A DNA stretch of 22,382 nt, taken from positions 1 through 22,382 of IMG/VR virus record IMGVR_UViG_3300008448_000729. One strand, given 5' to 3'. Below are positions 1-17,804 of this stretch, piece after piece; the stretch's first letter is position 1, and every line of letters starts with the position of its first letter. The notes under the pieces were generated by a model. The model saw nothing but the letters and a program-made list of their open reading frames with translations. It did no database searches and was not told the DNA's origin. Made by a program: the position numbers and the translations under genes. The stretch is from a virus.

Positions 1-294
1 ACCTAATACTTCTAATCTACCAACTTCTCTCTGGAATTCTGTTTGGGTCATATTCAGAGATATGCTATTATATGTCTTATCGTATTCTTTTTTAGCCTCT
101 TCTATATTAAAGTCGCCTTGTTTAGCTTTCTTATAATAAGGCATCTTAACTATAAAGTGGTTATAAGTAAGCATAGAAAGGCCGCCCTTTTCTTTTGCAT
201 TGTTTGCAATCTTCTCTGCACCCTTCATCCTGGTCTCTGCAAACTCTATGAAAGACTCTTTGATCTCTTTTAAAATGTCTAGAAGCTTTGTCAT
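1..294 (-). CDS. Partial phage protein (N-terminal 98 residues), function unknown
   Basis: An open frame starts at the ATG at 294-292 and runs off the left edge of the window, so only the N-terminus is visible. It begins MTKLLDILKEIKESF, an amphipathic helix, and continues as a charged, mostly helical protein with many K and E residues (for example KMPYYKKAKQGDFNIEEAKK). No catalytic motif is visible. The first ten residues end in L-K-E, like the N-terminal peptide of the P-loop kinase gene at 4976-5761; such peptides resemble T4 capsid-targeting sequences (inference). An ATATTTAT element lies 6 nt upstream of the start. It is the most downstream gene seen in the minus-strand block. The reading frame is well supported; the function is not recognised. 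Confidence 0.7.
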   Translation of the reverse strand, partial: MTKLLDILKEIKESFIEFAETRMKGAEKIANNAKEKGGLSMLTYNHFIVKMPYYKKAKQGDFNIEEAKKEYDKTYNSISLNMTQTEFQREVGRLEVLG

Positions 295-300
295 ATGAAT

Positions 301-308
301 ATAAATAT
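301..308 (-). promoter_or_regulatory. ATATTTAT element upstream of the gene starting at 294
   Basis: On the minus strand ATATTTAT ends 6 nt before the ATG at 294. The same octamer, in the same orientation relative to the gene, precedes five other start codons in the window. It could be a phage late promoter -10 element or a translation-initiation element; the sequence alone does not decide. Confidence 0.35.
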
Positions 309-3111: not shown

Positions 3112-4392
3112 TTATTCTATTTCAATCTTTTTTAATACTTCTGCATCGATATATCTAGGGAGTATTTGCTTGTATATTCTACTACGTTTTTCAGAAGTTC
3201 CTTTAATTACAATCTTATTTATATATTTTTTGTACTCGTAATAAAACTTATTAATTATACTAGACACTGTCTCAAGAATATTTTTAGCATCTCCTTTACC
3301 AGTCATTTGAAACGTATCTATTTTATGAAAGTCTCCTGCATCTAAACCAAATGATACTTCAAAATCTCCAGCCTTTTCCATTGAAGATATTTCAACTCTA
3401 TATTTGTTTTCTTTTGTTTTAAAAGTATACTCAACAGTTATTAAGCTGTTGTCTTCCTCATCACGCACAATGTCATATTTTGAAAATGGATAACTAACCT
3501 CATTTAATCTGAACTTACTTAATATATCTTTAGTTTTATCTATATCTTTATGCATGATTGCAATACCACCTAATGCTTTCCAAGGAGCTAGGTTTGGCCA
3601 ATAGTCGTCTATCAACATAGAGTTCTTTGGGTCTGCAGTCATCATGGAATGCTTATCTCCTGTCTGAGCAAATAATATCTTCTTAGGCTGAGGATTTAGA
3701 TTGTTCTTAATCCACTCTTGCTTTCCTTCTTTAGCGTATTTAAATTTACTAGGGCTAGTTAATATGTATGGCTTATACTTACCTATGATAGACCATAGTT
3801 CTTGGCCACCAGGCATCCATTTCATTTTGCTCCAAAATTCAATACCAGCTTCATTTACAGCGTCTTCAAATGCCTTTGCCCCTTTTTCTCCATAATATTC
3901 TCTAGGCATAACACCATAGAAGTGTTCGAACCTTTCATCAAAGTCACATAACACTCCGTCCATATCACAATAGATTTGTAGACCTCTACTATTCTCTACT
4001 TCATAAATCTGTTTAAGAGTAGGAAGTAGATGCTCGTAGATCATCTCATTGTTTTTACCAAAGTCTCGCATCATGATACCAGCTAGAGAATTAGCTTGAT
4101 TTTCTATATGTGAACCAGTCTTACCAGAATCTGGTTTTATCATATTGAGCTCTCTTTGTCTATGGTGAACTAGCTCATGACCTAATGTTCTAAGTATATC
4201 AGCTAAATTACGATTGCCTGTATACACTTCTATATTACCAGAGTCTGGATTATACTGTCCAAAGCTTTTTCTATCTACAGCCCAATCACGATCGTTTGTA
4301 AACCCTATTTGTGGTAGTTGATTTATATCTAGTTTCAATTTACAAAACTGTATAAACTCTTCTATTATATTATTTCTTTGTTCGAGTGTCAT
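3112..4392 (-). CDS. Three-module fusion: HExxH metalloprotease-like, 5'(3')-deoxyribonucleotidase-like HAD phosphatase, and phage C-terminal domain
   Basis: Module 1 (residues 1-125) has a zincin motif H72-E-L-V-H76 and a downstream E97 in ENQAN that could be the third zinc ligand; it resembles small SprT/wss-type metallopeptidases. Module 2 (about 138-290) is a HAD phosphatase of the NT5C type: D143-M-D145-G-V, T212 in ILTSP, K224 before EWIKNNL, and D262-D263 in LIDDYWPN, so all four HAD motifs are present. Such enzymes dephosphorylate (deoxy)nucleoside monophosphates. Module 3 (about 299-426) is an alpha/beta domain (YTFKTKENKYRVEI, KGDAKNILETVSSIINKF) recurring in phage proteins of unknown function. 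The linkers carry I129-Y-E131|V and L296-N-E298|V, prohead-protease-like sites. The gene overlaps its upstream neighbour as ATGA. Assignment of modules 1 and 2 is firm; their substrates are inferred. Confidence 0.85.
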   Translation of the reverse strand: MTLEQRNNIIEEFIQFCKLKLDINQLPQIGFTNDRDWAVDRKSFGQYNPDSGNIEVYTGNRNLADILRTLGHELVHHRQRELNMIKPDSGKTGSHIENQANSLAGIMMRDFGKNNEMIYEHLLPTLKQIYEVENSRGLQIYCDMDGVLCDFDERFEHFYGVMPREYYGEKGAKAFEDAVNEAGIEFWSKMKWMPGGQELWSIIGKYKPYILTSPSKFKYAKEGKQEWIKNNLNPQPKKILFAQTGDKHSMMTADPKNSMLIDDYWPNLAPWKALGGIAIMHKDIDKTKDILSKFRLNEVSYPFSKYDIVRDEEDNSLITVEYTFKTKENKYRVEISSMEKAGDFEVSFGLDAGDFHKIDTFQMTGKGDAKNILETVSSIINKFYYEYKKYINKIVIKGTSEKRSRIYKQILPRYIDAEVLKKIEIE

Positions 4393-4979
4393 TTTAATAT
4401 TTTCAATAGTCTACCAAATATATCTTTAGCCGCTCCTTTATTGTAAGCAGAATCAGGTATAAATTTAGCAAACTCCTCAAAGTTACCTGTCTTAATGGCT
4501 GCTCTCATTTGAGTGGCACTGATTCTACCAAACTGATTTGGTATTACTTCTTTTCTAACTCTGTTAGGGAACCTTTTTTGTATTGAATCAAAGTAACCTA
4601 TGCCTTCAACTTCTTCAGCTCCGCCTGCAACGTAGATTGGGTCAACATCTGGATTCTCTGCCATAAAAGTAAAAATGTCTTTTATAGGAGTTGATTCTTT
4701 AGATATACTAACTGATATTTTAGGATTAGGCTCTGCTTTAAGATACTCTTGCCATATATAAAGAGAGTCTTCAGGAGTGATACCATACTTAGTTACATTA
4801 GATATAATAACATAAACCTTATTGATATAAGGCTTGGATGCTAAATACTTTGCTGCTTCAAAATGTCCTTTGTGAGGTGGCTTAAATTTACCAGGGTAAA
4901 AGCAAGGTCCTACATCAGGAGACGCCTCTCTTAATAAGTCTTCTACTACTTGCCTACCTATTTTTTCTACGTCTATCAT
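4389..4979 (-). CDS. HxGH nucleotidyltransferase, NMN adenylyltransferase-like (NadM/NadR type)
   Basis: The 196-aa protein has the nucleotidyltransferase signature F-Y-P-G-K-F-K-P-P-H36-K-G-H39 near the start and the second motif I153-S-A-T-Q-M-R159 near the end. These are the alpha-phosphate and triphosphate binding motifs of the NMNAT/cytidylyltransferase superfamily. An NMN adenylyltransferase would make NAD+ from NMN and ATP. Other members (pantetheine-phosphate or glycerol-phosphate transferases) cannot be excluded. The first 18 residues form an amphipathic helix ending L16-R-E18|A19, before the core fold, and look like a removable capsid-targeting peptide (inference). It overlaps both neighbours by 4 nt (ATGA), so it is tightly co-expressed with the P-loop kinase and the phosphatase fusion. 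Confidence 0.85.
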   Translation of the reverse strand: MIDVEKIGRQVVEDLLREASPDVGPCFYPGKFKPPHKGHFEAAKYLASKPYINKVYVIISNVTKYGITPEDSLYIWQEYLKAEPNPKISVSISKESTPIKDIFTFMAENPDVDPIYVAGGAEEVEGIGYFDSIQKRFPNRVRKEVIPNQFGRISATQMRAAIKTGNFEEFAKFIPDSAYNKGAAKDIFGRLLKILK

Positions 4980-5761
4980 GATTTAATAAATGATTTTGCT
5001 TTGCTAACAACACTAGAAATGTCTTGTGATTTTAGTTGCGAAACCTGCTTCTCTATATCTCCAAACTGGTCAGATAATATATCGATTTGCTTATCTACTA
5101 AAGCTTTAGACTTGGCTATCTCTTCAGGAGTCTTTTGCTTGGTAGGGTCCTTTTTAAAAGTAGACTTAAACTGTCCTGATGATAAAAGCTGCTCAAAGAA
5201 CTCTTTTAACTTGCCAGACTTATAGGCATTTTCAAATTCACCTACCATCTTCGTCTCTTCATCAGAACCGCCTGTTTGTACCAAATAGAATTGATCTCCA
5301 AACATTTTCTTATATGTCTCAATGTTCTTGTATACATTGTTCCAACTAGAAAGAACTCCTACCGTTGGCACCCTTCTCTCTCTTTTAAAGTTACGAAGGA
5401 AGCTAACAATAGGATTAGTATATACCATGACCATCATTACATCATATCCATCATTTTTAATACCAGATATCCGGTCAACATTAGTTGCGGTAGTATCGTA
5501 CAAGAAGTTATTTCCTGATTTTATGGCATTAGGAAGGTCTTGCTTATCAATCTGAATAGATGCCTTTGCCAGATTGTTATACATAGGACTGTCTTTGTCC
5601 TCCACATATTTATCTGCATTAAGTTCTACCCAGTCATATTTTTGTAGGTCTGGTTTGATCTGTCTAACAAAAGTGGATTTGCCAGCACCGGCACCGCCGG
5701 CCATTATAATAGCCTTTTTGTCGAATTTGGCTTCCAATAATAAGTCTAGTAGCTTTATCAT
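4976..5761 (-). CDS. Zeta-toxin-like P-loop kinase, 261 aa
   Basis: A Walker A loop, A21-G-G-A-G-A-G-K28-S-T30, follows the first beta strand (KKAIIMAGG). N48-A-D50 downstream is in the position of the catalytic or substrate-binding acid of zeta-type kinases, and a basic lid-like stretch (RNFKRERRVP) lies at about 113-122. Zeta toxins phosphorylate UDP-N-acetylglucosamine; phage and other relatives phosphorylate nucleosides, sugars or polynucleotide ends, so the substrate is open. Residues 170-261 are a charged helical extension. The N-terminal MIKLLDLLLE|A ends in L-L-E|A, the T4 prohead-protease consensus. No antitoxin-like gene adjoins it, which argues against a toxin-antitoxin pair. It overlaps the next gene by 4 nt. 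Confidence 0.85.
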   Translation of the reverse strand: MIKLLDLLLEAKFDKKAIIMAGGAGAGKSTFVRQIKPDLQKYDWVELNADKYVEDKDSPMYNNLAKASIQIDKQDLPNAIKSGNNFLYDTTATNVDRISGIKNDGYDVMMVMVYTNPIVSFLRNFKRERRVPTVGVLSSWNNVYKNIETYKKMFGDQFYLVQTGGSDEETKMVGEFENAYKSGKLKEFFEQLLSSGQFKSTFKKDPTKQKTPEEIAKSKALVDKQIDILSDQFGDIEKQVSQLKSQDISSVVSKAKSFIKS

Positions 5762-5768
5762 ACTACTA

Positions 5769-5776
5769 ATAAATAT
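5769..5776 (-). promoter_or_regulatory. ATATTTAT element upstream of the P-loop kinase gene
   Basis: On the minus strand the octamer ends 7 nt before the ATG at 5761, and its first base is the last base of the upstream gene's TAA stop. It has the same orientation and a similar distance as the elements at 301-308 and 7500-7507. Confidence 0.35.
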
Positions 5777-13974: not shown

Positions 13975-14418
13975 ATGGCACAAATAGATGCATTAAGAAA
14001 GTTAATTCGTGAGGAATTAAAAGCCGTCCTTAAAGAGGAGCTTCCTAAAATATTAAAGGAAAACCAAGCCCCTGTAATAAAGGATGGCAAAAAATCATTG
14101 CAAGAAGAGATAAAAGCTAAAATCCCAGGAACATTGAACACTCATGCAAGTAAACCTCAAATAAAGTTTACGTCTAACAATCCTATGGCAGCGTTCTTAA
14201 ATGATACCGCCAAAAATATGATAAATGAAGACTTCTCTATGACTTCAGCAGACGTTCATCCAGCTATGGCTTTCCAGCCTAACGAAGTGTCTGTAGGTTC
14301 TGTAGGAGGAATGCTAGGGACAGCTAGACCTAGCTCAAATATAAACGCAGTTCAAATTAATGAGGTTCCAGACTTTAGTGCTTTAATGGGCAAACTTAAA
14401 GAGAGGGGTGAAATCTAA
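13975..14418 (+). CDS. Phage structural-block protein with N-terminal charged coiled coil, 147 aa
   Basis: Residues 1-55 form a strongly charged helix (IDALRKLIREELKAVLKEEL, then PKILKEN). A mostly disordered middle follows (HASKPQIKFTSNNPMAAFLN), then a glycine-rich segment (GSVGGMLGTARPSS) and a short terminal helix (DFSALMGKLKERGEI). No fold or catalytic residues are evident. It is joined to the gp25-like gene by a TAATG overlap, so it is made together with baseplate wedge proteins and may be a small wedge or assembly factor such as gp53 or gp51. That role is only inferred from position. Confidence 0.65.
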   Translation: MAQIDALRKLIREELKAVLKEELPKILKENQAPVIKDGKKSLQEEIKAKIPGTLNTHASKPQIKFTSNNPMAAFLNDTAKNMINEDFSMTSADVHPAMAFQPNEVSVGSVGGMLGTARPSSNINAVQINEVPDFSALMGKLKERGEI

Positions 14419-16700: not shown

Positions 16701-17804
16701 ATGGCCGTATATAAAATATTTGCATCTGCTGACGCTTCGTTATATTCTAACCAACCTGCTAGAAACACAGGTTTAGATGAAATATTAGAGGTTAGTGTAA
16801 AAAATAGTTCTCAACCTCTTAACTTTTTTGTCGATCCTGTACCATCTGAACCATTATTGCAAGATGATATTAGAAGGTCTGTTATTTTATTTAGTCAAAC
16901 AGATTTAAATAAAATAAAAACATTTAGAACAGGTTCGTGGCAAACAAATCTAAGATTATACTTAGCAAATGCAGAAAACTTAACTACCACATATAATTTA
17001 GAGGTCGCGGCTGTATCCTCTTCTTGGTCAATGGGAACAGGTAAATTAATCGATAACCCGCAAACAAGAAATGGTGTGTGTTGGTATAATACAGGATCAT
17101 TTATTTCAGCATCTAGTAATTGGCCTAATGCATCATACTATTTAACTCCTGGTGGAGGTAACTGGTACGGTTCTTTTGTAAGCCAGTCTTTTGAATATAA
17201 TGTGAATAAAGATGTAGATGTTAATGTTACACCTATAGTTAATTCATGGTTTAGCGGATCTAATAATGCTGGTTTTATAATTAAGCATCCTCAAAGTATA
17301 GAGAACAATTCAAATACTTATATTGCTCTAAGTTTCTTCTCAGTTGATACTCATACAATATATCCTCCTACAATTGAAATGAAGTGGGATGATAGCTCGT
17401 ATTCTACAGGCAGCCTTAGTGTTATTAACAGTTCTAATACTGTAGTAACTTTAGCCAATAATACTAGTGTGTATAAATACGGAACAGATAAATATAAGTT
17501 TAGGATAAATGCCAGAGACCAATACCCAGTAAGAACGTTTACTACAGCATCGTTGTATACAGTTAATAAAGCACTTCCACAAACTTCATATTGGGCAGTC
17601 CAAGATGCAAAAACAGAGGATATGGTTATAAACTTTGACGATACGTATACAAAGATAAGCTGTGATGGTACAAGCAGTTATTTTAACATGTATATGAATG
17701 GTTTAGAACCAGAAAGATATTATAAAATACTTATCAAAACAGATTTGTCTGATGGTGAGTCTTATGAAATAGATAATAATCTCATTTTTAAAGTAGTTAG
17801 ATAA
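16701..17804 (+). CDS. Virion structural protein with DNRLRE/CBM96-like beta domain, 367 aa
   Basis: The first 215 residues resemble the DNRLRE/CBM96 beta-sandwich: KIFASADASLYSNQPARNTG and LDEILEVSV at the start, DIRRSVILFSQTDLNKI, a strand pair (NLRLYLANAENLTTTYNLEV), AAVSSSWSMGTGK, and DVNVTPIVNSWFSGSNNAG. In secreted bacterial proteins this fold often binds polysaccharides. Residues 240-367 form another beta-rich region (FRINARDQYPVRTFTTASLY, RYYKILIKTDLSDGESYEI). The position right after gp6 corresponds to gp7/gp8-type peripheral baseplate proteins. Glycan binding is suggested by the fold, not shown. The gene begins 10 nt after the gp6 stop with an A-rich leader and ends in a TAATG overlap. 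Confidence 0.65.
   Translation: MAVYKIFASADASLYSNQPARNTGLDEILEVSVKNSSQPLNFFVDPVPSEPLLQDDIRRSVILFSQTDLNKIKTFRTGSWQTNLRLYLANAENLTTTYNLEVAAVSSSWSMGTGKLIDNPQTRNGVCWYNTGSFISASSNWPNASYYLTPGGGNWYGSFVSQSFEYNVNKDVDVNVTPIVNSWFSGSNNAGFIIKHPQSIENNSNTYIALSFFSVDTHTIYPPTIEMKWDDSSYSTGSLSVINSSNTVVTLANNTSVYKYGTDKYKFRINARDQYPVRTFTTASLYTVNKALPQTSYWAVQDAKTEDMVINFDDTYTKISCDGTSSYFNMYMNGLEPERYYKILIKTDLSDGESYEIDNNLIFKVVR

Follow-up and report, generated by a model that had tools for sequence, protein, structure and literature searches.

The window analysed here is an entire virus record of 22,382 bases (IMGVR_UViG_3300008448_000729), AT-rich and from a T4-like water phage. Its plus strand carries baseplate and tail genes, and a block on the minus strand holds a primase, a PD-(D/E)XK nuclease, and a cluster of genes, some of whose products bear short N-terminal leaders. 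Two enzymes of the minus strand overlap by four bases: a P-loop kinase of zeta-toxin/polynucleotide-kinase-like type (4976-5761, 261 amino acids) and a nucleotidyltransferase with a NadD/NMNAT-like fold (4389-4979, 196 amino acids).

Genes and leaders at the locus

The kinase matched the Pfam family Zeta_toxin (E 2.9e-12; 46.9 bits, cut-off 22.3) and contains the Walker A motif GGAGAGKS. In Foldseek, the zeta type was also matched, and polynucleotide, seryl-tRNA, and adenylate kinases matched equally weakly (E around 1e-5, weak TM). For the nucleotidyltransferase, Foldseek retrieved the NaMN adenylyltransferase NadD (E 2.9e-8), and a phrog match pointed to a cytidyltransferase. It carries motifs of the (H/T)xGH and ISSTxxR types, HKGH and ISATQMR: among 20 aligned sequences, PPHKGH (residues 34-39) was invariant, and ISATQMR was near-invariant except in the three most distant ones. 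The enzyme is a predicted NadD/NMNAT-like nucleotidyltransferase, judging from its sequence and modelled fold.

The first-pass annotation had described leaders at the start of both enzymes, and they are present as described. The kinase starts MIKLLDLLLE|AKFDKKAIIMAGGAGAGKST, a 10-residue leader (5732-5761, minus strand) with the core soon after. The nucleotidyltransferase has the 18-residue leader MIDVEKIGRQVVEDLLRE (4926-4979, minus strand), ending in LLRE and followed by ASPDVGPCFYPGKFKPPHKGH. We consider both to be putative capsid-targeting peptides. The truncated open reading frame at 1-294 (minus strand) was said to begin like the kinase, and it does: its 10-residue leader MTKLLDILKE (265-294, minus strand) resembles the kinase leader by BLOSUM score in the relatives' genomes and continues with I, the first residue of IKES. 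In relatives, this protein has 105 amino acids, with full-length homologues in G011 (17006-17323), G009 (31770-32087), and G001 (23646-23963).

Two neighbours on the minus strand show similar boundaries further inside the protein. In the 426-residue protein (3112-4392), an NT5C/HAD domain starts from KQIYE|VENSRG (E131, 4000-4002). A stand-alone homologue of this domain in G002 begins MIKLKELLEE|VENNKY, and the alignment starts exactly at E131, so IYE|VEN is possibly a candidate internal processing site at a related boundary. In the protein at 938-1513, a conserved RKSFRARH domain follows NSLQE|AEYKG, and HTVC008M gp131 (55% identity) has LPLEE|AEFQG at the same boundary. SLQE|AEY and its counterpart PLEE|AEF could be candidate processing sites after a long propeptide.

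Conservation of the leaders

We collected homologues in viral contigs at 80 loci for the kinase and 32 loci for the nucleotidyltransferase, confirmed by tblastn. Nearly all the kinases start with M[IV]KLxxLLxE or a close variant despite core divergence of up to 65%, and 3-6 residues separate the leader from the core strand in the relatives. For both enzymes, the leaders are kept in dozens of relatives across identities of about 35-97%.

Within the leaders, the conserved part is [LI]xE. The kinase E10 was invariant among 31 aligned relatives, with L or I at P3 and E at P1 in 31/31. In the nucleotidyltransferase, L16 and E18 were invariant in all 20 aligned relatives (P3 L or I and P1 E in 20/20), and the single early indel of the alignment directly follows E18. 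The annotation had given the ending as LxE|A. The [LI]xE stood for both families, and the nucleotidyltransferase has A or G at P1' in 16/20. For the kinase, LxE|A overstates the site, since alanine follows in 7 of the 31 sequences, the others having V (7), I (6), D (6), Q (4), and M (1), and P1' is not limited to the A, G, or S that the annotation had named.

The kinase leader is under selection as a peptide. The pN/pS ratio was 0.26 for residues 2-10, close to 0.30 for residues 16-40 of the core, and rose to 1.00 for residues 11-14 (5720-5731, minus strand), an unconstrained linker between leader and core. Synonymous divergence was equal in leader and core (pS of 0.57 vs. 0.59), and therefore the selection acts on the peptide and not on the DNA. 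AlphaFold predicted the leaders as helices of low confidence ahead of cores that mostly reached pLDDT values of about 85-98: a separate helix at residues 4-11 of the kinase (pLDDT 49 for residues 1-10) and a helix at residues 4-18 of the nucleotidyltransferase (pLDDT 54-58 for residues 1-20), whose core exceeded 90.

More distant homologues were mixed. The HTVC008M kinase, at 25% identity, retains LxE (MIPFILKE|G). A leader is missing from the sole cellular kinase homologue found, in an assembly of Acholeplasmataceae, which begins with the core strand. Homologues lacking the leader had been named as evidence against a targeting role, and this has partly come true for the nucleotidyltransferase: the G003 enzyme lacks the leader, and that of HTVC008M has a leader-like start without the E.

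A common tag and the prohead protease

The leader is not confined to the two enzymes. In the five larger genomes or contigs of relatives that we examined (G001, G002, G003, G009, and G011), it was found on the kinase, the neighbours of 105 and 181 amino acids, a YPPYR-type protein, the HAD nucleotidase (MIKLKELLEE|VEN), and GNAT-like and alpha/beta-hydrolase-like proteins, some of them far from the conserved gene cluster. Pfam matches for the other leader-bearing proteins were weak (HAD, CTP_transf_like, GNAT, and alpha/beta hydrolase). The gene that separates gp21 from gp22 in G003 begins MKLASIILE|A, and the kinases of the G003 relatives begin MKLSTIILE|D.

We compared N-terminal sites with the internal background, as the annotation proposed. 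The loose pattern [FLIM][LIMFV]xE, counted near the N-terminus with E at around residue 8-12, was 4-9 fold over background in the five relatives' contigs. A strict leader pattern, shaped after the kinase leader had been seen, was about 26-80 fold over internal background and occurred in 1/202 proteins of low-GC phage stretches without a T4 head. In an unsupervised test, pairs of unrelated proteins of the same genome shared similar N-terminal 10-mers 7 times in G001, 19 in G002, 3 in G003, and 6 in G009; at internal offsets, the count was 0-2. Leader-type pairs were prominent, and in G002 and G003 some pairs reflect repeated N-termini of other kinds.

A second leader-like type, KLAGLLTE|S, was observed on several proteins (G002 155607 and 99795; G009 44631), two of which adjoin gp21. 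Besides, an N-terminus like LRKLIREE recurs on several proteins (13975-14418 in the window; G002 40801; G003 50612).

No head genes were detected within the 22-kb window. Since it is a fragment without them, we infer gp21 from the relatives. A search for a gp21-like protease had been suggested at the outset, and of 13 contigs from relatives, 8 encode Peptidase_S77 gp21, among them G011 with its 97% identical kinase. The specificity of T4 gp21 is a glutamate with L or I at P3. In the relatives' genomes, [LI]xE also ends propeptide-like N-termini of gp21 itself and of the MCP. The N-terminus of gp21 in this clade reads M(S/N)KQLLIE|Y, and that of T4 gp21 MNEPQLLIE|T. In T4, self-cleavage removes nine N-terminal residues, as reported in PMC9958956; this nine-residue cut ends at LLIE|T, so T stands at P1'. 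P1' may thus not need to be small, as gp21's own site has Y or T there.

The arrangement is close to that of T4, where head proteins bear targeting propeptides of 10-20 residues (according to PMC5694885) and the capsid-targeting sequence of IPI-III and Alt was described by Mullaney and Black in 1996 (as cited in PMC9958956 and PMC5694885). As in IPI-III and Alt, a leader of 10-20 residues ending in [LI]xE occurs on unrelated proteins as a helix before the folded domain, and a gp21-family protease is encoded in this clade. The T4 gp24 start, MAKINELLRE|S, is close to the MIKLLDLLLE|A of the kinase. As a control, the loose pattern picked 7 of 54 T4 proteins: IPII, IPIII, gp21, gp22, gp24, gp2, and denV. 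There are differences as well. The cargo is here a P-loop kinase and a NadD-like transferase, whereas in T4 it consists of small inhibitors and an ADP-ribosyltransferase. The leader is here leucine-rich (KLxDLLxE), whereas that of T4 is aromatic (MKTYQEFIAE), and P1' is less restricted than in T4. Packaging is known for T4, whereas the present phage is known from sequence alone. SPN3US/phiKZ-like giant phages likewise process N-terminal propeptides on injected proteins with a prohead protease, but as described in PMC5694885 these propeptides mostly exceed 100 residues and the cargo is a virion RNA polymerase.

Although the unconstrained P1' of the kinase and the neutral drift of residues 11-14 would also fit leaders that target the head core and stay uncleaved, with [LI]xE as part of a docking helix, and such a helix alone would account for the sharing among unrelated proteins, we find this unlikely. 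The invariant E with L or I at P3 matches the specificity of T4 gp21, the same motif ends the gp21 and MCP propeptide-like N-termini, and gp21's own site has Y or T at P1'. Cleavage after [LI]xE by gp21 is likely.

Virion proteins and the proposed role

NMN adenylyltransferases and kinases were reported in purified virions of T4-like cyanophages, and several groups could not separate cargo from contamination. A homologous cytidylyl/NMN-adenylyltransferase was detected in virions of S-CREM2, S-SCSM1, and S-SZBM1 (reported in PMC10665884, PMC9602691, and PMC9146016). All three start with a leader of the kind seen on T4 internal proteins that ends in [LI]xE|A, as in our nucleotidyltransferase: MKNFSSFLTE|A in S-CREM2, MKSFLQFLKE|A in the S-SCSM1 NMNAT, and MRFRQFIIE|A in S-SZBM1. 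These virions were measured, whereas our phage and its close relatives are represented by sequence data. The nucleotidyltransferase of the window aligned with virion protein S-SZBM1_140 over most of the domain in a profile match; in a direct profile match to S-CREM2 gp154, it aligned in the C-terminal part only. Besides, S-SCSM1_93, listed among virion proteins, is homologous to a DUF3008 protein that the window cluster encodes at 1875-2504.

Among the non-structural proteins detected in S-CREM2 virions (Table 3 of PMC10665884), the SAM hydrolase begins MKDFDSFLEE and the kinase MKRFDAFLTE. A pattern derived from T4 IPII and IPIII, formulated with the S-CREM2 N-termini already known, had four matches in S-CREM2, including the cytidylyltransferase, the kinase, and the SAM hydrolase, and 4/4 were virion-detected vs. 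50/216 overall (P 0.003). The broad pattern ([FLIM][LIMFV]xE anywhere in the first 30 amino acids) did not separate virion from non-virion proteins of S-CREM2 (P 0.23), and in S-SCSM1 genome-wide leader enrichment among virion proteins was not seen (1/46 vs. 8/234, P 0.81). The S-CREM2 and S-SCSM1 authors considered both cargo and purification carry-over possible (as stated in PMC10665884 and PMC9602691). The available text of the S-CREM2, S-SCSM1, and S-SZBM1 papers names no targeting signal, and a literature search, mostly outside subscription journals, found no paper tying these enzymes to a targeting peptide.

S-CREM2 gp12 (OR473000, 7704-10313), annotated as Cas9 and virion-detected, has a stretch resembling a T4-type leader, FASFMAE|A, near its N-terminus.

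The T4-like capsid-targeting function proposed in the first-pass annotation gained support from gp21 in close relatives, the tag on unrelated proteins, and the homologous transferases in cyanophage virions. We consider it fairly likely, taking all steps together, that the leaders work as capsid-targeting sequences like those of T4 internal proteins and that the enzymes are packaged, cut by gp21 after [LI]xE, and injected. This would be a variation on the known T4 capsid-targeting system, here applied to metabolic enzymes. Targeting of the kinase and the nucleotidyltransferase to the prohead core is well supported, because of leader conservation, gp21 in relatives, the common tag, and virion-detected homologues. 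Because unrelated proteins in related phages bear this tag as well, both enzymes probably travel inside the particle and enter the cell together with the DNA, a last step that would follow by analogy with T4.

During assembly of the prohead core, each enzyme would be docked to it (to scaffold gp22 or core proteins) by its amphipathic N-terminal helix. In this way, the head would enclose the kinase and the NadD-like nucleotidyltransferase together with the products of several neighbouring genes. The gp21-family protease would then cut after [LI]xE and leave the folded enzyme free inside the head, from where it would exit with the DNA at infection. We infer the docking partner and the role of the enzymes in the new host.

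The leaders might instead be amphipathic helices that dock the enzymes within the cell, to a complex or a membrane, unrelated to the virion. Their helical moment is high, and the partners, encoded together in a conserved cluster, could assemble into a metabolic complex. However, leader-bearing genes are also found at a distance from this cluster, as well as between gp21 and gp22, and homologous transferases with T4-type leaders were found in cyanophage virions, so that we regard intracellular docking as quite improbable. Chance, N-terminal composition bias, or a translation-initiation constraint is very improbable, and the selection test has largely disproved it. In its favour are the frequency of short [LI]xE matches, the AT-rich initial codons, and the scant use of Shine-Dalgarno sites, but the leader amino acids are strongly constrained while synonymous sites are not, and the strict pattern far exceeds both the internal background and the low-GC control phage stretches. 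Translation initiation in particular was ruled out, because the kinase leader lacks synonymous constraint.

If capsid targeting holds, certain 'auxiliary metabolic genes' take effect at entry and not after phage gene expression. The targeting peptide can be read in the sequence, which makes cargo vs. contamination directly testable, and injected proteins become predictable from genomes and metagenomes via the leader. Tentatively, aquatic T4-like phages may load an enzyme cluster via a general, swappable tag, and so provide a metabolic kit at DNA entry, before phage gene expression. Equally doubtful, as a joint reading, is that this cluster consists of NAD and nucleotide enzymes, including NMN adenylyltransferase, P-loop kinase, and 5'-nucleotidase, which could for instance counter defences that deplete NAD. 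Phages are known to rebuild NAD against NAD-depleting systems (PMC12774641), and we can speculate on a supply of NAD or nucleotides at entry, perhaps versus such defences.

Putative promoter motif and translation starts

The motif ATATTTAT lies upstream of the kinase (5769-5776, minus strand) and of the truncated 105-residue-type gene (301-308, minus strand), and ATATTTAT(A) is also found upstream of 10212 and 13975 in the window. ATATTTAT(A) is the reverse complement of the T4 late -10 element. Ahead of genes in G001, G002, G009, and G011, its enrichment was about 9-13 fold, on the coding strand only, and TATTTATA was about 11 fold enriched upstream of genes in G003. The T4-like late promoter TATAAATA was little enriched upstream of genes in the relatives, whereas its reverse complement was strongly enriched. 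ATATTTAT mostly stands 3-50 nt before the start and precedes baseplate genes and the kinase alike; it may serve this clade as a late promoter.

Shine-Dalgarno-like sites upstream of called starts were at or below random level in the relatives and the window, with G002 slightly above (0.084 vs. 0.050), and these upstream regions are A-rich. Thus, the host or the phage may not rely on Shine-Dalgarno initiation.
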